From a virus, in IMG/VR virus record IMGVR_UViG_3300025137_000256, positions 1 to 25,814 of that record: 25,814 nucleotides of DNA. One strand, written 5' to 3'. Below the pieces are notes generated by a model. It was not told where the DNA came from and searched no databases. It worked only from the letters and a program-made list of their open reading frames with translations. Made by a program: the position numbers and the translations under genes. The first letter of the stretch is position 1, and each line of letters opens with the position of its first letter. Shown in pieces: positions 86 through 22,792 of this stretch.

Positions 86-107
86 AAAAATGAACTCAGG
101 AATTTTT

Positions 108-539
108 ATGTCACTGCACCTGTTAAGTGCAGAGGAAATCCTAACTTACTGGCCTCAAATCTCACCTCATATAGATGTCGCACTTGAGCACTCTGTTGGC
201 GAGATAACCACATTCCAGACCTTCAAACATGCTATGAACGGACAGATGCATGTTTGGATATATGTGGATCAGAATAAGATAACCTCTGCATTTGCTACCC
301 GCTTTTTAATCTTCGACAACTGCAAAGCACTGCAAATAATGACTTTCGGTGGGTCTGTCTCAGATTGGGAACTAACACAATCTGTGCATTCAATCTTTGA
401 GCAATTTGCCAAGGAAAACAAATGCCAAAATATCCAAATCTGGGGCCGAAAAGGATGGGTCAAGCGTTTGGAAAACGTAACCAGCAAGAGCGGCACGAAG
501 TACAAGTCCCTCTACACAGTAATTTCGATGGAGATTTAA
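108..539 (+). CDS. GNAT-like small phage protein
   Basis: The 143-residue product resembles a family of small podovirus proteins with an acetyltransferase-like fold. Visible hallmarks are a central strand pair, a 'MTFGG' turn about two thirds in, and a C-terminal 'WGRKGW' followed by a short helix and strand. Such proteins often sit next to tail genes; their function is not established. ATG at 108 is chosen over ATG at 90 because AGGA (98-101) lies six bases before it and the earlier ATG has no ribosome binding site. It ends one base before the next start, so the two are probably co-translated. The fold assignment is from pattern memory, not a search. Confidence 0.6.
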   Translation: MSLHLLSAEEILTYWPQISPHIDVALEHSVGEITTFQTFKHAMNGQMHVWIYVDQNKITSAFATRFLIFDNCKALQIMTFGGSVSDWELTQSVHSIFEQFAKENKCQNIQIWGRKGWVKRLENVTSKSGTKYKSLYTVISMEI

Positions 540-540
540 A

Positions 541-2742
541 ATGACTTTGATTAACCCGTTTGGGATGAGCCGATATCTGCACCCTCGCCATGCGGGATTG
601 ATCGTGTACAAAGGTGGTGGATCATCCATAACCAATACCGGGTTGGGCGATGATCAATTTAGTACCCTTCAGACGGGGCAAACTGATATTCGCTCTGACA
701 TAACAGAACAAGGCGAAGAGGCTAAAACATACGCAGATACGTTCACCGCCAACCAAGAAAATATAACAAATTTAATTGGTACAGGTTCTACGGGGGAAGG
801 CATCCCTGCGACGGGGTTGTACGGGCAATTTTCAAATCAAACTGACCTGCTATCAGGCTTGGGTGAGAGAATTAACACAGGATTTACCGACCTCACTGGC
901 ACGATTAATACGGAGACAGCGAATCTCGCAGAGGGGCAATCCGGGCTTATGACCGGGCAAAGTGGGTTAGTAACAGGTTTAGAAGGACTCCAGGCAGGGC
1001 AAGATACCGGTTTTACAGATATAGGAACTCGCTTCGATACCGTAGACCAAGCTAATGTAAATATGCAGACTGCCGTGGACGAAGGTTTTCAAGATCAAGC
1101 GCAAGGTTTTACGGACGCTAACGCCAATATGTCTGCAGGTTTTGCGGATAGTGCTACTGCCCTAAACGAAGGTTTTAGTGATGCAGGTGCAGCTCTAGAC
1201 ACTGGATTTTCAGATACTGCATCGCAACTTACCGATACCCAAGCAAATGTTTTAGCAGGACAGCAAGGTCTTGATTCCTCTTTAACTACACTGAGCGATG
1301 CTGCCGATATGTATGCAGCACAATCTTTGGAAAATCAGGAGGGTCTTCAGTCGGGGCAAGACGCATTCGTAAGTAATTTTGACACATATGTAGACCGTTA
1401 TTCTGACGATGTAAGTCTTGCAAACCAGTTTAGGACTGATCTTGAAGAAGCGCAGACCAACGCATTTTCTGCGCTGCGAGAAGATCAACTCAACCAGTTT
1501 AATTCCCTCGGTCAGAACATAAGTGATTTTAGTAACACCAACCAGAGCAATGTTGACCAGCTTAATCAAGCGGTATCCAGCGGTTTCAGCGGCACCTCTA
1601 TGGAACAGCAAATTTCTAATCAAAACCAGACTAATGATCTTAATAGCATCCGTGGTCTTTTACAGACTACTGGTCAATCTTTGGATGCTACCACCCGTGA
1701 TCAGTACCAAAAACTTACTAACGCATTTGACCAACAAGGTAACCTCATTACCCAAGGAATCGATGATCAAGGCAATACTGTAAGAAGACAACTAGATGCC
1801 CAAGGTGCGGTCATTGAAACTCGCTTTAATCAATCTGGTAATCAAATTGGGCAATTCCGCATGGATGTTGGTCAGATGATTGCCACAGCTAATAACTTTG
1901 TATCAGGTCAAATTTCTAACGTTGGCGCTGATACACAAGCTAGATTTGATGTGCAAACTGGCACACTAAATGCCCAAGGTAAGTCCCTTCTAACTTTGGC
2001 TAGTCAGAATACTTCTTTGGATCAAACAGTCCGTAATGGATTTATGAACGTTGCATCTGCGTTTGATAATAGCGGCACTCTTATTGGGCAATCTGCTAAC
2101 GATCTTGGAACAATACAACGTCAAATTGATCAAAACGGAAACCTAATAACAACTCGGTTTGACCCGACAGGCGGTCTAATAGATCAATCATCCTCAAATA
2201 TTGCTAAATCTATTGCTGATGCAAGCAATGCAATGCAGTCAGGGCAGACGGGGTTGTCCACAAACATTAATGCGCTGGGAACAACTTTAGATCAAACAAG
2301 TTCAAGTTTAACGGCAGAAAGTGGCGATCTTCGCAGTCAAATTAGGGCAGGATTTAACGCTAATAATCAAACAATGAATGCTCAAGTCAGAGACATGGCT
2401 AGAGTAGCTTCTAGCATCCAAGACTTGGACATTAGTAGACGGCAAGACCTTTCGGAATTATCGGAAGCATTTGATGATCAGGGCCAATTAATACGGTCAA
2501 CGGTTGCAGAGAATGGTGTGACAACTGCCCGTGCCATTGATCAAAATGGTAATCTTATGCTCAGAGCCTTTGATGCCACTGGCAATGAACTCGGCAACAA
2601 AGTTGTAGATATTAATCAACAGTTAAACTTCCTCGGAGAATACGGATATTTGCCGGGGGCTAATACCAGCATGGGCAATCTAAGCCCTGCTGTGCAAACA
2701 AATAATAGTGGCTTCATGTCACCCTTTACTCAAACAAGGTAA
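541..2742 (+). CDS. Repeat-rich fibre-like virion protein
   Basis: This 733-residue protein is rich in Gln, Asn, Ser, Thr, Gly and Asp and nearly lacks Cys and Trp, typical of elongated phage fibres or rods. After a short N-terminal stretch with a Lys-Gly-Gly-Gly turn (24-27), residues 110-232 carry Gly-Phe-x-Asp motifs, four of them exactly 11 residues apart (189, 200, 211, 222). Three copies of a 41-42 residue unit of the form FD-x-x-G-x-LI ... D-x-x-G-x-x-I ... RF-x-x-x-G start at 396, 508 and 644. GGAG six bases before ATG supports the start at 541 over the in-frame ATG at 565. It lies next to the lysis cassette. A tail fibre or tail-associated rod is likely by composition and context; no adhesin or depolymerase domain is recognised. 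Confidence 0.6.
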   Translation: MTLINPFGMSRYLHPRHAGLIVYKGGGSSITNTGLGDDQFSTLQTGQTDIRSDITEQGEEAKTYADTFTANQENITNLIGTGSTGEGIPATGLYGQFSNQTDLLSGLGERINTGFTDLTGTINTETANLAEGQSGLMTGQSGLVTGLEGLQAGQDTGFTDIGTRFDTVDQANVNMQTAVDEGFQDQAQGFTDANANMSAGFADSATALNEGFSDAGAALDTGFSDTASQLTDTQANVLAGQQGLDSSLTTLSDAADMYAAQSLENQEGLQSGQDAFVSNFDTYVDRYSDDVSLANQFRTDLEEAQTNAFSALREDQLNQFNSLGQNISDFSNTNQSNVDQLNQAVSSGFSGTSMEQQISNQNQTNDLNSIRGLLQTTGQSLDATTRDQYQKLTNAFDQQGNLITQGIDDQGNTVRRQLDAQGAVIETRFNQSGNQIGQFRMDVGQMIATANNFVSGQISNVGADTQARFDVQTGTLNAQGKSLLTLASQNTSLDQTVRNGFMNVASAFDNSGTLIGQSANDLGTIQRQIDQNGNLITTRFDPTGGLIDQSSSNIAKSIADASNAMQSGQTGLSTNINALGTTLDQTSSSLTAESGDLRSQIRAGFNANNQTMNAQVRDMARVASSIQDLDISRRQDLSELSEAFDDQGQLIRSTVAENGVTTARAIDQNGNLMLRAFDATGNELGNKVVDINQQLNFLGEYGYLPGANTSMGNLSPAVQTNNSGFMSPFTQTR

Positions 2743-3719: not shown

Positions 3720-3900
3720 GACTCAGCTTGAAATATACTGCCCACAATTGAAGCAGTATTCTGAGGCATTCAACAACAATCTAGCTGATGAAATCGAAAG
3801 TCTACCGCCTAACAATCGGGCGATTGAAGAGGCAATCGGAAACTATGTTTATTTGCGTGACCGTATTCGGCGCTGCCATGAAGAGAGGGATGAAATCTAA
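3655..3900 (+). CDS. Rz1: Rz1-like outer-membrane lipoprotein spanin (o-spanin)
   Basis: Starting at ATG 3655, the 81-residue product has a short signal peptide with a hydrophobic core and a lipobox ending Leu-Thr-Gly-Cys at residues 13-16, so the mature lipoprotein would begin at Cys16. It overlaps the end of the Rz-like gene by 65 bases in a different frame, the classic embedded or overlapping spanin arrangement. An earlier in-frame ATG (3601) would put 18 polar residues before the signal and is rejected. The mature part has two further Cys and is rich in charged residues, unlike the Pro-rich lambda Rz1. Gene ends on the base where the next gene starts. Confidence 0.8.
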   Translation: MKTMLLLIVSLSLTGCAQTVYRTQLEIYCPQLKQYSEAFNNNLADEIESLPPNNRAIEEAIGNYVYLRDRIRRCHEERDEI

Positions 3901-5708
3901 TGGGATTATGGAGTCAGACAGTCGGTCAAGGGAATAGTTTTGGGCAGTCGGTTAACAATCAGTTTGGTGGAAATAATGGTGGAGAGTATGTAGGTGGTAA
4001 CTGGGTGGCCGATGATAGTGTACCGGGCCATATAGACAACGATCCCGGTGCATCTGGCACCTTTAATTTTGGTTATGATGCGACTTCAGGGGGTACAGCC
4101 AATGCCGCCGATTTTAATTCTAGCAACAATGGTGACGGAGATGACAGCAGTGGCGGTAGCGGGTCTACAGCCCAGGAAACTGAAGAAGAATTGCTACCTA
4201 CAAGCACTCCATTCGATCCTGACGCTGTATTAGAATACGCCAAGACCGCCGGGATGGTCGAGAGTGACGCACAGATTGCGGAACTACTAGCTGATCCCAC
4301 TAAATGGCTGAATGACCGTAACATTAACCTCAGTGATGTTGTTCCCAATATTGATCCTGATGAAGAAGGAACAAATCTTGATCCATACGACACACGATAT
4401 GGTCTAGGTGAGGATGTAGCAATTGATACTGCTACTGCTGCTATTAGCACCTCTGAAGATGTGACGCAGGGACAGATAACAGACTTCACTGCTGATACCA
4501 TTACAGATCGAATGGGAACTGATGTTACAACCGTTGATCCAGCTAAAGGCACAATCAGAGATGAAAATCTCGTAGATGCCGCCCAGATCGACATGCAGGG
4601 TGTTGGCACTGGAGTAAACGCTGACGGTACTATATCGGTCACCGGTGAGGCTTTAAACAACTTTGCCACACAAGACATTTCAATGATGATTGATACCTCA
4701 ACAATCAGCGGAAAGCTTTTGGCTCAAAAGCTGGGGGAAGGTAACTACACAGATGCCAAGGCTACTGTTCTTGGTCAGATGAAGATTATTAGTGATGAAT
4801 TTAAAGACAGTAATGGTCAACCTAAAATACCTCCATGGGCGCAATCAATAGCCCGTGAAACATCTAAAGCAATAGCTTTTACCGGCATTACAGGCACTGC
4901 AGAAACCGCTGCTATGGCTACCGCACTTATGGAAGCTACATTAGGCATAGCTGAAAAAGACGCCGCATTCTTTCAAACCCTGACAGTTAAAAATTTAGAT
5001 AATCGGCAACAGTCTATTATCAATAAAGCAAATGTTATGGCTCAATTTGAAATAGCTAATTTAGACAATAGACAGGCTGCATTAGTTCAAAACGCCAAGT
5101 CTTTTCTGGAAATGGATTTGGCTAATTTAACAAATGAACAGCAAGCTGAAGTGATAAACACACAAGCTATGGTAGAGGCATTACTTACGGATCAAGCGGC
5201 TATAAACGCCCAGCGCCTGTTTTCAGCAGAAACCGCTAATGATTTTCAAAAATACTATGATAATATGAATGCCACAATTTCCATGCATAGGTCTGAACAA
5301 CTTAATGCAATGAACCGTTTCAATGCCGGTGAGATTAATGATGCATCTGAGTTTAATGCAACAATGGAAGATGCCCGACAGCGGTTCTATGCATCCATGC
5401 AATACAACATTGATCTTGCTAATGCGAAGTGGCGTCAGACCGTATCGACAACAAACAGTGAAATGCAATTTGAAGCTTACTCTACCGATGTAAAAAACAC
5501 TTTGGATATCAGCACAGAGGCCATGAACCGGATGTGGGATCGTGTCGATAATATGTTGGATTATATTTTTACCGGTGTTGAAAATGAAGCTACACGGGAT
5601 GCTAATATTCTTGCAGCACAACTATCCGCACAAGCCCGTAGCGGAAGTTCTAGCAGCGGAAAGTATCAGGCAATAGGGACTATTTTTAGTGGAATTATGG
5701 CATTTTGA
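3900..5708 (+). CDS. Virion structural protein with 22-residue repeats
   Basis: The 602-residue product has a Gly/Asn/Ser-rich N-terminus (1-95), an acidic middle, and a long mostly helical C-terminal half (315-580). Three 22-residue units beginning Asn-Leu-(Asp/Thr)-Asn run in tandem at 365-430, followed by more degenerate repeats with Phe-Asn-Ala motifs. Proteins with this kind of 'NLDNRQ' helical repeat are known among virion proteins of marine T4-like and podophages (recalled, not searched). GAGGGA eight bases before ATG supports the start. It overlaps the next gene by four bases. Likely a tail or baseplate-like component; the exact role is unknown. Confidence 0.6.
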   Translation: MGLWSQTVGQGNSFGQSVNNQFGGNNGGEYVGGNWVADDSVPGHIDNDPGASGTFNFGYDATSGGTANAADFNSSNNGDGDDSSGGSGSTAQETEEELLPTSTPFDPDAVLEYAKTAGMVESDAQIAELLADPTKWLNDRNINLSDVVPNIDPDEEGTNLDPYDTRYGLGEDVAIDTATAAISTSEDVTQGQITDFTADTITDRMGTDVTTVDPAKGTIRDENLVDAAQIDMQGVGTGVNADGTISVTGEALNNFATQDISMMIDTSTISGKLLAQKLGEGNYTDAKATVLGQMKIISDEFKDSNGQPKIPPWAQSIARETSKAIAFTGITGTAETAAMATALMEATLGIAEKDAAFFQTLTVKNLDNRQQSIINKANVMAQFEIANLDNRQAALVQNAKSFLEMDLANLTNEQQAEVINTQAMVEALLTDQAAINAQRLFSAETANDFQKYYDNMNATISMHRSEQLNAMNRFNAGEINDASEFNATMEDARQRFYASMQYNIDLANAKWRQTVSTTNSEMQFEAYSTDVKNTLDISTEAMNRMWDRVDNMLDYIFTGVENEATRDANILAAQLSAQARSGSSSSGKYQAIGTIFSGIMAF

Positions 5709-6709
5709 TAAAAACCATATTAGAAAAACATGAGAACGTAATATTCTTTTGTTCTGGTGGTAGAGACAGCATGGCTGTCTGGCATTTATTAAAGCGTTAT
5801 TTAGATAAAATCTACGTTGGCTGGGTGGATACCAATAACAACTTACCTGAAGTTAAAGCTTATATGACTGAAGTATCAAAGCAGTCTCCTAAATTTATTA
5901 GATATAAATCAGATCAGCCCAAATGGGTACAAGAAAACGGAATGCCGTCTGAAGTTGTCCCTATCGATAACACACCGTTAGGCCAACGCTATGCAGGACA
6001 AAAACAGGTTACCATCGTAGATTACCTTCAGTGCTGCTCAGAAAACATCCATCAACCGCTCTACGCACTAGCAAAGCATGTGAATGCAACCGCTGTGATC
6101 ACAGGGCAGAGAAGTTCTGATGAACATAAGGATAATAAGTCCAGTGGAGATTATGAGAATGGTTTTCAATATTTCTTCCCGATTGAAGATTGGTCTGATG
6201 ATGATGTTAAATCGTATCTAAAATCCAAAGGTGAGACAGACCCAAGATTTGATATTCACCATAGTTCCATTGATTGTCTAACCTGCACAGCGTTCTGCAA
6301 ATCAAGCCCCCAACGCATGGAGTACCTACAGAAAAACCACCCTTCTCATTTTGATGAGTTGGTTCGGAGATTAAAGATAATTCGTAAAGAGATAACTGAT
6401 TACACAGATGGGATTGATGCAGTTATAAACGGAAACTTTAAAGAAACTGTGGGTAACTCTATGAAAACAAAGAGTAGAGAAAGTCTCCCTTCAGACATTC
6501 GATTAAAAGAAAATATTGAACATTTAGAAACTGTGGAGGGCATCCGCTATTATACGTGGGATTGGAATCAGGAAGCGAAGCGAGTTGGTCTAAACCATGG
6601 CCCAACGTGGGGTGTGATGGCGCAGGAAATTCAGAAAACTCATCCACAAGCTATTGTTGAAGGTCCACATGGGTATTTACTCGTTAATTATGGGGCGCTT
6701 CCCAAATGA
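5705..6709 (+). CDS. APS/PAPS-reductase-like PP-loop domain fused to peptidase S74 chaperone domain
   Basis: Residues 1-240 match the PAPS-reductase/ATP-pyrophosphatase fold: the PP-loop 'SGGRDS' at 17-22, 'ITGQRSSDE' at 132-140, and cysteines C110-C111 plus C191/C194, the spacing of the [4Fe-4S] ligands of APS reductases. The C-terminal catalytic ECGLH motif of true reductases is absent, so sulfate reduction is doubtful; activation or thiolation chemistry is possible. Residues 263-334 are a peptidase S74 intramolecular chaperone: 'SDIRLKENI' (263-271), 'GVMAQEI' (303-309), 'LLVNYGAL' (325-332). S74 domains normally trimerise at the end of tail fibres and cut themselves off before the Ser of the SD motif; Ser263 and Lys268 are present. 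The start is TTG at 5705, overlapping the previous stop; no ATG or GTG lies between it and the PP-loop. Confidence 0.85.
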   Translation: MIKTILEKHENVIFFCSGGRDSMAVWHLLKRYLDKIYVGWVDTNNNLPEVKAYMTEVSKQSPKFIRYKSDQPKWVQENGMPSEVVPIDNTPLGQRYAGQKQVTIVDYLQCCSENIHQPLYALAKHVNATAVITGQRSSDEHKDNKSSGDYENGFQYFFPIEDWSDDDVKSYLKSKGETDPRFDIHHSSIDCLTCTAFCKSSPQRMEYLQKNHPSHFDELVRRLKIIRKEITDYTDGIDAVINGNFKETVGNSMKTKSRESLPSDIRLKENIEHLETVEGIRYYTWDWNQEAKRVGLNHGPTWGVMAQEIQKTHPQAIVEGPHGYLLVNYGALPK

Positions 6710-15378: not shown

Positions 15379-15535
15379 GCTCGTCTTTGTTCTTGAAGAA
15401 TGCGAAGTTATATCCACGACAAAATTCCCTGTAATAATGTGATGTCGGGCGATATTTGCAGTCTGGGTTATCTTGATAAAAAGCGTTAACTCCCTCTTCA
15501 AACGCTATGCAGTTACTCGCTGGAAGCTGCCTCAT
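15338..15535 (-). CDS. Small protein resembling the ribosome modulation factor pattern
   Basis: The 65-residue product has the order Phe-x-x-Gly-x-x-Ala-Phe, an Asn-Pro-x-Cys turn, then Tyr-Tyr-x-x-x-x-x-x-Gly-Tyr, which resembles small proteins of the Rmf type or short phage proteins with a similar 'F-x-x-G ... NP-x-C ... Y-x-x-x-F-x-x-G' layout. The similarity is weak and could be only a common small-protein pattern. AGGAGG is present but only three bases before ATG at 15535, which is close. It overlaps the upstream gene by 23 bases and the downstream nuclease by 41 bases. Confidence 0.55.
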   Translation of the reverse strand: MRQLPASNCIAFEEGVNAFYQDNPDCKYRPTSHYYREFCRGYNFAFFKNKDEHVQSIPARNLRSV

Positions 15536-15758
15536 GAACCTCCTGTTCTGTCATCTTCCACACAAACATTGGGGTGCCTTTCCCAACGTATGCTCCCAAT
15601 GTGTTAAAGCTGAAATATTCCTGTGCCTCATCGTAGGTCATCCCATCCCTAACTAAGATTTCAAGGCAGTGATCAGCGTCATATACAACAATGTTGTCAG
15701 AGCCACTTCTCTCACCAACACCAATGATTGCATCTCCAAATCCATCTGCCAGAAGCAT
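15513..15758 (-). CDS. Conserved small phage protein of unknown function
   Basis: The 81-residue product has features of a small protein found in many marine podoviruses and siphoviruses (recalled): 'LADGFGDAIIGVG' at the N-terminus, a central 'VVYDADHCLEIL', then 'GMTYDEAQEYFSFN' and 'GAYVGKGTPMFVW'. No function is assigned to the family that I know of. It starts directly at the stop codon of the ribonucleotide reductase gene and is probably translated by coupling, as no good ribosome binding site is seen. Confidence 0.7.
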   Translation of the reverse strand: MLLADGFGDAIIGVGERSGSDNIVVYDADHCLEILVRDGMTYDEAQEYFSFNTLGAYVGKGTPMFVWKMTEQEVHEAASSE

Positions 15759-17504
15759 TTATTCACACTTGCGAAGGCCGGTTGCTGGATCAAAATAGCA
15801 AGCCCCACCCTCTTCAACAAAATCATGATTTTCTTCCACAACGGGAACTTCTGCCACATCCTCAACAGCAGATGCGTTTAAAATTCCAAAGCGTTTTCCA
15901 CTAGCACGAAATGTCGTACAACCAGAACTACCGCCCTCATAGGCATCCATATATACCTTTTTGAAGTCTTCCCATCCAACATTGTCACCAACATTGCAGG
16001 TCTTACTGCAAGCTGAATCAACGTATTTACTGGCAACATTTAGAACCTTCACATGGTCAAACACGCTCAGTTCATCAGCAGTTTTGCCTTTTATTCCAAA
16101 CTCACGGTAGGCGTAGTCTTCGACTGTTTCGATTCGTGGCCCATCAAAGGTTTGGATCGTCCGGTCATATGTGTGGCTGAACACTGGTTCGATACCAGAG
16201 GAGACATTGTCTGCAGATAGACTAATGGTGCCTGTCGGGGCGATTGACAAAAGATGCGAGTTACGAATGCCGTGAGTTTGGATAAGTGACCTAATGCTTG
16301 CGGGTAGTGTTTGAGCAAATTCTGAATCTAGAAACCTTTCATCATATAAAGGGAACTTACCTTTCTCTACCGCAAGTGAGATTGATGTCATGTAGCAGCC
16401 ATCCCTGATCACAGTCATGATCTTTTCAAACCAATGAATGAAGTCAGATGATCCATAGTCATAGCCCATTGCTTCCAGAGCGTTAGCTAGACCGGTCACA
16501 CCCAATCCCATACGCCGGGTATCTTTTGCTTGCTTTTCCTGTTGAGGTAATGGGTATGTTGCACGATCCACCACATTATCCATTGCCCGGACAACATGAG
16601 GGATATCGTTCTTCAACATATTTATATTAAACGAATATACCCCTTCTGGGGTCATCTGGATGTATTTAGTTAGGTTGAATGATCCCAATAAACACGCACC
16701 ATAGGGCGGCAAAGGCTGTTCACCACACGGGTTTGTGGCAACGATCTTCTCACAGTAATGCAGATTGTTTTTGCGGTTAATCCTATCAATAAATAAGATA
16801 CCAGGCTCTGCCCAATCCCATGTTGATCTAAGGATATCATCCCATAATGCACGGGCATTTACTGTCTTGTAGACAGTGCCTTCAAACACCAGATCAAAGT
16901 CTATATCTGCTTTAACTGCAAACATAAAATTATCAGTCACGCCAACTGAAATATTAAACTGAGTTAACTCTGTGCTGTTGTTTTTAGCCCGGATGAACTT
17001 TTCGATATCGGGATGATCGACCCTCAAAACGCCCATCTGAGCGCCACGTCTGTGACCGGCAGAAGCAATGGTTTTGCAGGTAGCATCAAAGATGCCCATG
17101 AAGGACAGGGGGCCACTAGACTTACTATCTAGGCTCCTGATATGCGCTCCATGAGGTCTGAGTGTGCTGAAATCATACCCAATACCTCCCCCTAATTGCA
17201 TAGTCCGGGCAGCTTCACCCACAGCATCTGTAATCCCATTCATACTGTCGGGAATGGTGCCTGACACAAAACAATTATATGGAGTTACAGTCCTCGGAGC
17301 GCCCATAGCAGACTGAACACGGCCAGCAGGAAGAAACCGTTGGTTATATAAAATCGTTCTAAAGTTATTAAAATGCGCTTCATCGTCTTTTAACGCTCCC
17401 GCAACCCTTGTCATAGCTTCAGTGAAAGTCTCACCTTCGCTACGATACTTCATTGCATGAATTTCTTCAGATATTGGTAGAGTAGGCCCGTATTCGTTTT
17501 TCAT
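15759..17504 (-). CDS. nrdJ: Ribonucleotide reductase, adenosylcobalamin-dependent (class II) type
   Basis: The 581-residue enzyme would reduce ribonucleotides to deoxyribonucleotides for phage DNA synthesis. Visible active-site parts are Cys78 in 'YNCFVSG', the 'LGGGIGYDFS' loop (104-113), 'NPCGEQPLPPYGACLLGS' (258-275) with Cys260, Glu262 and Cys271, 'PTGTISLSADN' further on, and a C-terminal Cys pair at 569 and 580 that would pass electrons to the active site. The N-terminal 'MKYRSEGETFTEAMTRVA' and the absence of an ATP cone and of an nrdB gene nearby point to class II, which needs vitamin B12, rather than class I. It is short, as in other phage class II enzymes. GAGGGA five bases before ATG supports the start. 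Confidence 0.9.
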   Translation of the reverse strand: MKNEYGPTLPISEEIHAMKYRSEGETFTEAMTRVAGALKDDEAHFNNFRTILYNQRFLPAGRVQSAMGAPRTVTPYNCFVSGTIPDSMNGITDAVGEAARTMQLGGGIGYDFSTLRPHGAHIRSLDSKSSGPLSFMGIFDATCKTIASAGHRRGAQMGVLRVDHPDIEKFIRAKNNSTELTQFNISVGVTDNFMFAVKADIDFDLVFEGTVYKTVNARALWDDILRSTWDWAEPGILFIDRINRKNNLHYCEKIVATNPCGEQPLPPYGACLLGSFNLTKYIQMTPEGVYSFNINMLKNDIPHVVRAMDNVVDRATYPLPQQEKQAKDTRRMGLGVTGLANALEAMGYDYGSSDFIHWFEKIMTVIRDGCYMTSISLAVEKGKFPLYDERFLDSEFAQTLPASIRSLIQTHGIRNSHLLSIAPTGTISLSADNVSSGIEPVFSHTYDRTIQTFDGPRIETVEDYAYREFGIKGKTADELSVFDHVKVLNVASKYVDSACSKTCNVGDNVGWEDFKKVYMDAYEGGSSGCTTFRASGKRFGILNASAVEDVAEVPVVEENHDFVEEGGACYFDPATGLRKCE

Positions 17505-20610: not shown

Positions 20611-20640
20611 AGTATGGCATAGTTAGTGGCGTAATGTCAA
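20611..20640 (-). promoter_or_regulatory. Sigma70-like promoter for the recombination/nucleotide operon
   Basis: On the - strand a perfect TTGACA (20635-20640) is followed after 18 bases by CATACT (20611-20616), and the TGC just before CATACT makes an extended -10. Transcription would start near 20604, about 30 bases before the ssDNA-binding protein gene. The -35 contains the TGA stop codon of the polymerase gene. An 8-base palindrome (CTAATTAG, 20594-20601) lies just after the predicted start and could be an operator. Confidence 0.65.
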
Positions 20641-22412
20641 TCTAACTCGACTTGATCCAACCAGTTTTTGCCCTCTGAAATCTCTATTTCTAGAGGCAGA
20701 GTGAAGGTGTAATTCCAACGCTCTTCTACCTCATCCACCACACCAACCATAGCCCAGCGCAGTGCTTCTAAAACTTGATCCCTTTCATCTGCACGGCAAT
20801 CCACTACAATTGAATCATGTACAGTTAGCACAATTTTAGATTGTAGGTTTAATTCTTTAAACCGGCGGTAAGCCCGTATGCAAGCCAACGGCACAACATC
20901 AGCCGTGGCAAATGATTGGACAGGATAATTAACAACATTAGTATAATTGGTTATTCTACCATTACCAAGGCGTTTGGCATCTTCCCAGTAGAACTGCCTA
21001 CCTGATGGAGTTTGCACTAAACCATCGACAAGAACACCGTCTGTTAGCTTTTTGTGATATCCATGTAAGCCTCTGTAAATATTAAAGAACTCTGTAAAAT
21101 AACGTCTGATATGATCCTTCTGCCCACCTCCAGTTCCCCCATAAATCGGGGCGAAAGAAAATGCCTTTCCCGCAGACCTCATTTCTTTAGTCACCTCTGA
21201 AACAGGACACTGATTAATGATACTGGCGGTTTGCTTATGCAAATCTTTACCGCTTTTAACATCTGCAATAATCTGCTGATCTTGGCTCAACTCCCCGCAT
21301 ACTACTAATTCAAGACTACTGTAATCAGCTTCAATGATTGTACCGTTTTGAAAGCGACTAATCATAGCCTTACGGATTGGAAAGCCTCGCTTTGGCATGT
21401 TCTGCAGGTTAATATTAGATGAACTCAAACGCCCGGTTGCAGTGATGCATTGATTGAAATTTGTGTGCAGTATACCATCAGGGCGGGTCCAGCTTTTTAT
21501 GCCATCAACAAAAGTATCTAGATATGTGGTGACTGCATTTAGCCGACTGATTTTAGTAAGGAACTCAACTGCTACAAGATTATTTTTATCTCTGGCTTGG
21601 GTGATCAGAGTTTGAATAGTGGTCTTGTCAGTTTTATAGCCGTTGATGCTGGCATACGAAGAGTTCTCTGGGTTCAGCTTTAGCCCTGCAATAACCCCGG
21701 TGCTTTGGTAAATAGCCCCGGCACCATCACATGTTTGGCATTTAGTTGGGTTTTTATAGGGATCACCCTGTATGCGGTATTTCTTGCCATTCCGTTGCCG
21801 GGTAATCTGTTTGTATTTTTGTATAGTGCCTCTGCCCCCACAATCCGGGCAGCAAATGGCTACCGTCTTTTTAATTGTTCTAGTGGTGGTTCTAACCGCA
21901 TTAATAAACTGAGATCGGTTCTGGCGAGGGGGCATCAAAGGCTTACCATTCGGCTGCATCCCAATGTTCCAAACCCGTTGATGCAGATGCCGGTCAATCA
22001 CTTCACGGCTATAGATTACCTTCGTTCTATCCGCTCCTGACGATAGATTTATCGGGGTATCACCCATAACATCTTCAACAATGGCACTGAGGTCTGCTTT
22101 AAGCTGCTTTTGTTCAGCCCGGAATAAGACTTCAACTTCTTGCAATGCTGAGTCATCTATTTGCACACCATTGGTTTCTAGTTCCACCAGTGTTGTTAGC
22201 ATTTCATTCATTAACTCAACGATATGCAATAAGCTGCTGTTGTTTGGCTGATCAAAATCTTTCATCTGATCGACAAATATACTGGCGCAGGATCGTACAT
22301 CAGCTTCAGCATACTCTATAACTGTAAGCAAAGGCATGGCCTCAAAGCCAACGCCGCTCTTAAACAGGTCATCAACTAAATCTGATTTCTTTTGTACAAT
22401 ATCTAAACTCAT
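20637..22412 (-). CDS. polA: Family A DNA polymerase with DnaJ-type zinc finger
   Basis: The 591-residue protein copies the phage genome. It opens with the end of a 3'-5' exonuclease domain: Tyr34-x-x-x-Asp38 is Exo III. Residues 188-195 and 225-232 are two CxxCxGxG units, a DnaJ-like zinc finger inserted before the polymerase domain, a trait reported for HMO-2011-type phages. Polymerase motif A is 'DYSSLELVV' with Asp363; motif B is Arg412-x-x-x-Lys416-x-x-x-Phe420-x-x-x-Tyr424-Gly, giving Phe at the '762' position; motif C is His532-Asp533-Ser534, with Ser where Glu is usual. AAGGAG six bases before ATG is an excellent ribosome binding site, and the start overlaps the exonuclease gene stop (ATGA). 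Exo I and II are in that upstream gene. Confidence 0.92.
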   Translation of the reverse strand: MSLDIVQKKSDLVDDLFKSGVGFEAMPLLTVIEYAEADVRSCASIFVDQMKDFDQPNNSSLLHIVELMNEMLTTLVELETNGVQIDDSALQEVEVLFRAEQKQLKADLSAIVEDVMGDTPINLSSGADRTKVIYSREVIDRHLHQRVWNIGMQPNGKPLMPPRQNRSQFINAVRTTTRTIKKTVAICCPDCGGRGTIQKYKQITRQRNGKKYRIQGDPYKNPTKCQTCDGAGAIYQSTGVIAGLKLNPENSSYASINGYKTDKTTIQTLITQARDKNNLVAVEFLTKISRLNAVTTYLDTFVDGIKSWTRPDGILHTNFNQCITATGRLSSSNINLQNMPKRGFPIRKAMISRFQNGTIIEADYSSLELVVCGELSQDQQIIADVKSGKDLHKQTASIINQCPVSEVTKEMRSAGKAFSFAPIYGGTGGGQKDHIRRYFTEFFNIYRGLHGYHKKLTDGVLVDGLVQTPSGRQFYWEDAKRLGNGRITNYTNVVNYPVQSFATADVVPLACIRAYRRFKELNLQSKIVLTVHDSIVVDCRADERDQVLEALRWAMVGVVDEVEERWNYTFTLPLEIEISEGKNWLDQVELD

Positions 22413-22792
22413 CCCGCTCTCCTTTCAGCAATAGCTTTCAAAGACAGTTGAGTGCGTTGGCCTTTTGCCAGTATGTATTCATTGATCATCGTGCATCTAA
22501 CAATCGGCGGGATAGGCATCCTCATCGATGTCAACCATAGAATATCAAACTTGGCATTGTGAGCCACAAGCATGTCAGCAGTTTCTAAGGCTTCAACTAA
22601 ATCATCTGGACTGTCAGGCACTGCTTTTTGGTTGTGGTGAAAAACCAAATGATAAACTTGATCTACTTTGCCATTTTCCAACCAACCGTAGTGGGCAGAA
22701 ACGCAGCGATTGTTTGGATTAAATGGTGAATTATCAGTCTTACCCCCAATCCGTTGGACTGTGGTTTCTAAGTCTACAACTAGAATTTTCAT
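22409..22792 (-). CDS. N-terminal part of 3'-5' exonuclease domain (split from the polymerase)
   Basis: The 127-residue protein carries Exo I (Asp6 and Glu8 in 'VVDLETT') and Exo II ('VAHNAKFDILW') of the DEDD proofreading domain, then ends within 'LSLKAIAERR', the helix that in complete polymerases leads on to Exo III. Exo III is found at the start of the next gene. The reading frame ends at TGA overlapping the polymerase ATG by four bases. The gene itself begins in a TAATG junction with the methylase gene, with GGGAG six bases before ATG. It may act with the polymerase in trans. A frameshift in the assembly is the main alternative; see the finding. Confidence 0.85.
   Translation of the reverse strand: MKILVVDLETTVQRIGGKTDNSPFNPNNRCVSAHYGWLENGKVDQVYHLVFHHNQKAVPDSPDDLVEALETADMLVAHNAKFDILWLTSMRMPIPPIVRCTMINEYILAKGQRTQLSLKAIAERRAG

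Follow-up and report, generated by a model that had tools for sequence, protein, structure and literature searches.

A phage enzyme resembling PAPS reductase (PAPSR) is joined in one open frame to a peptidase S74 domain, and this PAPSR-S74 fusion is real and recurrent. It was found in the window, by which is meant the whole stretch of DNA analysed, an IMG/VR virus record of 25,814 bases. Judged from related loci, the fused S74 is a C-terminus that was displaced from the gene directly upstream, which encodes a virion-type protein (the 'body'). At the level of sequence, comparison of loci shows a recombination origin for the fusion ORF, and modular gene shuffling accounts for the fusion better than a new enzyme-delivery device. 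The best explanation overall, which is considered probable with moderate confidence, is that a cassette was inserted at the domain junction and that its products work as follows. The cassette would consist of an 'AF-stop' end and a PAPS-reductase-like gene that lacks a stop codon, and would have been inserted in a marine podovirus of the HMO-2011 type, precisely where the body meets its C-terminal S74. The body would now be terminated by a stop codon at the point where S74 would otherwise cut, and the orphaned S74 would have become the C-terminus of the enzyme. Body and fusion gene may be translated in a coupled way via a TTGA overlap. For the events after translation, we infer that the enzyme releases itself, S74 still cutting before Ser263 to leave a soluble enzyme active inside the infected cell, and that S74 itself is then either idle, as a passenger, or trans-acting, as a helper of the virion-type body.

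The fusion gene and the body/S74 junction

The fusion ORF (5705-6709, + strand) starts with TTG and encodes 334 aa. Its PAPS-reductase-like PP-loop domain, the putative inserted cassette, comprises residues 1-240 (5705..6424, +) and is followed by a linker of ~22 residues (residues 241-262; 6425..6490, +), near the start of which stand-alone reductases end. The remainder is the Peptidase_S74 domain (residues 263-334; 6491..6706, +), a short form without C-terminal helix, which contains Ser263 (codon 6491-6493, +) and Lys268 (codon 6506-6508, +). Both domains exceed their Pfam cut-offs: PAPS_reduct matches residues 12-196 (E 5.6e-14, 53 bits; cut-off 22.5) and Peptidase_S74 matches residues 263-316 (E 2e-10, 41.3 bits; cut-off 22). 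Searched against PHROGs, the ORF matches phrog_424 (2.5e-22, residues 6-230) and several S74-bearing families. The initial annotation had described two domains in one frame, the presence of Ser263 and Lys268, and no fibre repeats between the parts. All of this holds: only the linker lies between the domains, and an alignment of 30 S74 domains shows no variation at the positions of the two residues.

The suggestion that the same architecture be sought in other phage genomes has also proved fruitful. A two-domain ORF occupies the equivalent position in three IMG/VR contigs from other metagenomes, L001 (92% identity), L002 and L003 (both 88%). These contigs represent two further lineages, L002 and L003 being almost one phage. 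Since independent contigs share the fusion, a base error near the linker, which the initial annotation had named as a possible source of an artefact, is excluded. Within the literature library searched, no paper links peptidase S74 with PAPS reductase.

The start codon of the fusion gene overlaps the stop codon of the body gene in the sequence TTGA (5705..5708, +), which is also found in L001 and L002. Two other routes of expression were considered and rejected. A programmed -1 frameshift from the body into PAPSR-S74 lacks a slippery heptamer in the short overlap, as read by eye, and internal initiation at the linker Met, which is conserved in three lineages and would yield a free S74, lacks a conserved ribosome-binding site. 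Promoter and terminator scans around the fusion gene gave matches at chance level only.

The body gene (3900..5708, +) encodes 602 aa ending in ...GIMAF-stop, and the last 18 residues (5652..5705, +) form a hydrophobic tail that ends where the S74 of relatives begins. S74-bearing relatives match PHROGs families annotated as 'DNA ejection protein' or 'virion structural protein'. The bodies of L018 and L020 share 80-87% identity with that of the window, and in both ...GITKF runs straight into SDIRLKEN, the start of S74. The order in the window is ...GIMAF-stop, then the reductase, then SDIRLKEN, so that the cassette sits exactly in the body/S74 junction. The virion/ejection proteins CRP-235 gp25 and CRP-738 gp24 of HMO-2011-type phages (phrog_4287 and phrog_6121) match the window in both the body and the short S74 (65-70% identity in S74), but in these phages the two form one protein, whereas in the window the reductase splits them.

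A census of loci, from which most duplicates were omitted, found body and S74 as a single ORF in 128 loci. The body stops before a PAPSR-S74 gene in 4 loci and before a 78-aa S74 ORF in 2, while 11 loci have neither arrangement, a fragment (L085) among them. Bodies without S74 also occur in the isolates phiM6, RHph_N3_13, CRP-345, HMO-2011, HTVC103P, Slicky01, MQM1 and CHOED, and S74 on the body is therefore dispensable in the wider group. Whether they precede S74, PAPSR or nothing, bodies mostly have a similar hydrophobic end stretch at this point. This shared ending speaks in favour of the body ending at a cut site. These loci amount to a natural cut-and-paste experiment on the S74 domains of virion proteins, in which one protein clade has S74 in cis, as a separate small ORF, on an enzyme, or not at all. 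The four states make the role of S74, and its possible action in trans, testable.

The separate S74 ORFs (L014:5320-5556 and L015:954-1190) retain all catalytic residues, and each overlaps the body stop codon, by 4 nt. Other genes lie directly behind the body in HTVC103P (L135:4319-5569, 416 aa) and Slicky01 (L136:4275-5240, 321 aa), neither of which matches a Pfam family above cut-off. From these two genes, the slot behind the body may be an insertion hot spot.

Divergence and origin of the cassette

Between the window and L002, DNA identity is 0.58 in the body (synonymous change saturated), 0.88 in PAPSR (dS 0.54) and 0.74 in S74 (saturated), and it rises and falls at the two cassette junctions. 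Across lineages the cassette is 88-90% identical at the DNA level and its flanks as low as 58-74%. Being far more alike than its flanks, the cassette therefore moves horizontally, as a block. The S74 nearest to that of L001 is found in L018 and L020, and the one nearest to that of L002 in L014. Either the cassette would have joined resident S74s more than once, or a single fusion would have been followed by exchange of S74. The PAPSR part shows dN/dS of 0.08-0.17 between lineages.

Stand-alone reductases of ~240 aa are present on other viral contigs, in Burkholderia phages and on contigs of bacterial genomes, for the most part Burkholderiales. Nearly all of them immediately follow a gene whose product ends in hydrophobic residues, mostly AF; this is also the arrangement in freshwater and Burkholderia podoviruses. 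An AF-stop ending was counted in 24 of 29 bodies preceding a stand-alone PAPSR and in all 3 preceding PAPSR-S74, and in none of 49 S74-fused bodies. The AF-stop ending thus seems to have arrived with the cassette. The AF ending shared by marine and freshwater bodies is circumstantial, because homology of these bodies is not demonstrable; profile comparison was negative, and only position and ending count as common. No S74 was found in the post-body slot of the stand-alone reductase loci, and the single S74 match in these loci is a tail-fibre gene of BcepIL02. Fused and stand-alone reductases are 28-41% identical, with the fused copies on their own branch in the tree, and at this level of identity none of the reductases compared is a close donor of the cassette.

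In phages with a stand-alone reductase, an acetyltransferase gene directly precedes the body. The window has an acyltransferase-like gene at 90-539 (+), which does not adjoin the body; in CRP-235 the annotation of this gene is toxin-activating lysine acyltransferase.

Reductase chemistry and the role of S74

The reductase part contains a PP-loop motif, SGGRDS (residues 17-22; 5753..5770, +), and a CC...CxxC pattern made up of Cys110-Cys111 (6032..6037, +) and Cys191-x-x-Cys194 (6275..6286, +), both halves of which are invariant in 28 of 28 reductases. This pattern is the arrangement of iron-sulfur APS reductases. AlphaFold models the reductase part with confidence, and S74 poorly, both in the full-length model and alone. 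The top Foldseek matches of the reductase part are APS/PAPS reductases (4bwv, 8.6e-8; 6vpu, 8.9e-7; 2goy, 3.0e-6). The PP-loop fold and CC...CxxC are common to the CysH enzymes and that of the window. However, CysH has a catalytic C-terminal Cys (ECG[IL]H), which is absent here, all 28 reductases lacking any Cys beyond residue 200, and the CysH NCBIfam equivalog gives 39.9 bits, far under its 154-bit cut-off.

The members of phrog_424 (such as BcepIL02 gp67 and JC1 gp65) have the same domain, the invariant CC...CxxC and the same slot behind a hydrophobic-ended protein. They are stand-alone genes of ~240 aa, whereas the window reductase, with no stop codon at its end, continues through the linker into S74. 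The likeness to SspD of DNA phosphorothioation systems consists in a weak profile match (3.2e-5; 1.1e-12 for BcepIL02 gp67), which points, as a lead only, towards sulfur-transferring PP-loop enzymes. The enzyme probably ATP-activates its substrate at the PP-loop, with a putative iron-sulfur centre, and does not carry out APS/PAPS reduction of the CysH type. Phage 'PAPS reductases' are commonly catalogued as auxiliary metabolic genes of sulfur metabolism; the one described here lacks the catalytic cysteine of the reductase and, across distant podoviruses, keeps to one position, after a protein of the virion block.

In the S74/ICA domain of MyRF, the Ser-Lys dyad S587/K592 cuts only in trimers, and trimerisation is driven mainly by a C-terminal helix, N670-K705, which starts 83 residues after S587 (PMC8326128). 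The window S74 resembles the endosialidase and MyRF domains in its Ser-Lys pair, five residues apart, and in its core fold family, but lacks their C-terminal trimerising helix and preceding beta-helical stalk. The window protein ends 71 residues past Ser263, short of where the MyRF helix begins, and the helix is absent throughout the marine S74 clade, with at most 4 residues following. Trimer formation is therefore less certain than the initial annotation assumed. Given the conserved dyad, self-cleavage before Ser263 is plausible but not assured, and self-release may fail because a short S74 without a trimer-driving helix would have to cut, while cutting in MyRF needs a trimer.

A stricter branch of the cassette explanation, which is tentative and on balance doubtful, would have S74 serve the upstream virion protein, made alongside it, with the enzyme as a mere carrier. 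Such chaperoning in trans is consistent with L014 and L015, where the separate S74 behind the body has every invariant residue. It is also consistent with the fused S74s evolving no faster than native ones in amino acids, their dN to other clades being about that among native S74s. However, this constraint may partly predate the fusion, because between the window and L001 dS reaches 1.0 in S74, against 0.46 in PAPSR. The many related bodies without any S74 likewise argue against it, as does the fact that known S74 domains are intramolecular chaperones (PMC8326128). It is improbable that S74 has become a transferable, trans-acting part that still serves to mature or cap the virion protein next to it, with cutting coupling release of a host-acting enzyme to assembly (or with the enzyme carried into the particle).

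An inert leftover, with S74 neither cutting nor assisting and the enzyme active as an uncut two-domain protein, would agree with the short S74 without trimerising helix and with stand-alone reductases not needing S74. It is nonetheless unlikely, since every fused copy keeps the Ser-Lys dyad and all other residues invariant across the 30 S74s, and the domain has not been shed by a stop or frameshift in three lineages.

The initial annotation proposed that S74 trimerises the enzyme or takes it into the virion. Known S74 domains do trimerise (PMC8326128), and the gene lies within a block of virion genes, behind a protein of virion and ejection families. This reading fares poorly for two reasons: the 128 single-ORF loci indicate that S74 was displaced from the adjoining gene, and the trimer-driving helix is missing. 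As to the virion, mass spectrometry of purified virions of the podovirus JC1 listed the upstream protein gp64 and the neighbours gp67, gp68 and gp69, but neither the reductase gp65 nor the acetyltransferase gp63 (PMC9144972). The JC1 data speak against a virion-bound stand-alone enzyme, and by our analysis attachment of the fused enzyme is not supported; the reading as a whole seems very improbable. Fusion of two genes by a base error or misassembly, for which no support was found although the window is a metagenome contig, is refuted, since three further contigs that differ at synonymous sites have the fusion too.

Phage affiliation and other genes of the window

The best matches of the window DNA polymerase are those of the Roseobacter phages CRP-235, CRP-212, CRP-738 and CRP-3 (56-60%). 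The polymerase ORF at 20637-22412 contains two CXXCXGXG repeats (CPDCGGRG and CQTCDGAG), and two such repeats are the criterion for HMO-2011-type DNA polymerases (PMC8528129). In the window, the polymerase is encoded in two ORFs on the - strand, 20637-22412 (591 aa) and 22409-22792 (127 aa), which overlap by 4 nt. The 127-aa ORF contains the first exonuclease motifs, and the polymerase of CRP-235 is a single ORF of ~701 aa. The split is either real or a base error.

The product of the ORF at 541-2742 (+) has 733 aa and weak internal repeats. At 447-487 aa its counterparts in relatives are shorter, so it has grown by ~250 residues in this phage. An 81-aa ORF (15513-15758, -) abuts the ribonucleotide reductase ORF (15759-17504, -; 581 aa), and CRP-738 has a ribonucleotide reductase gene of equal length at that place.
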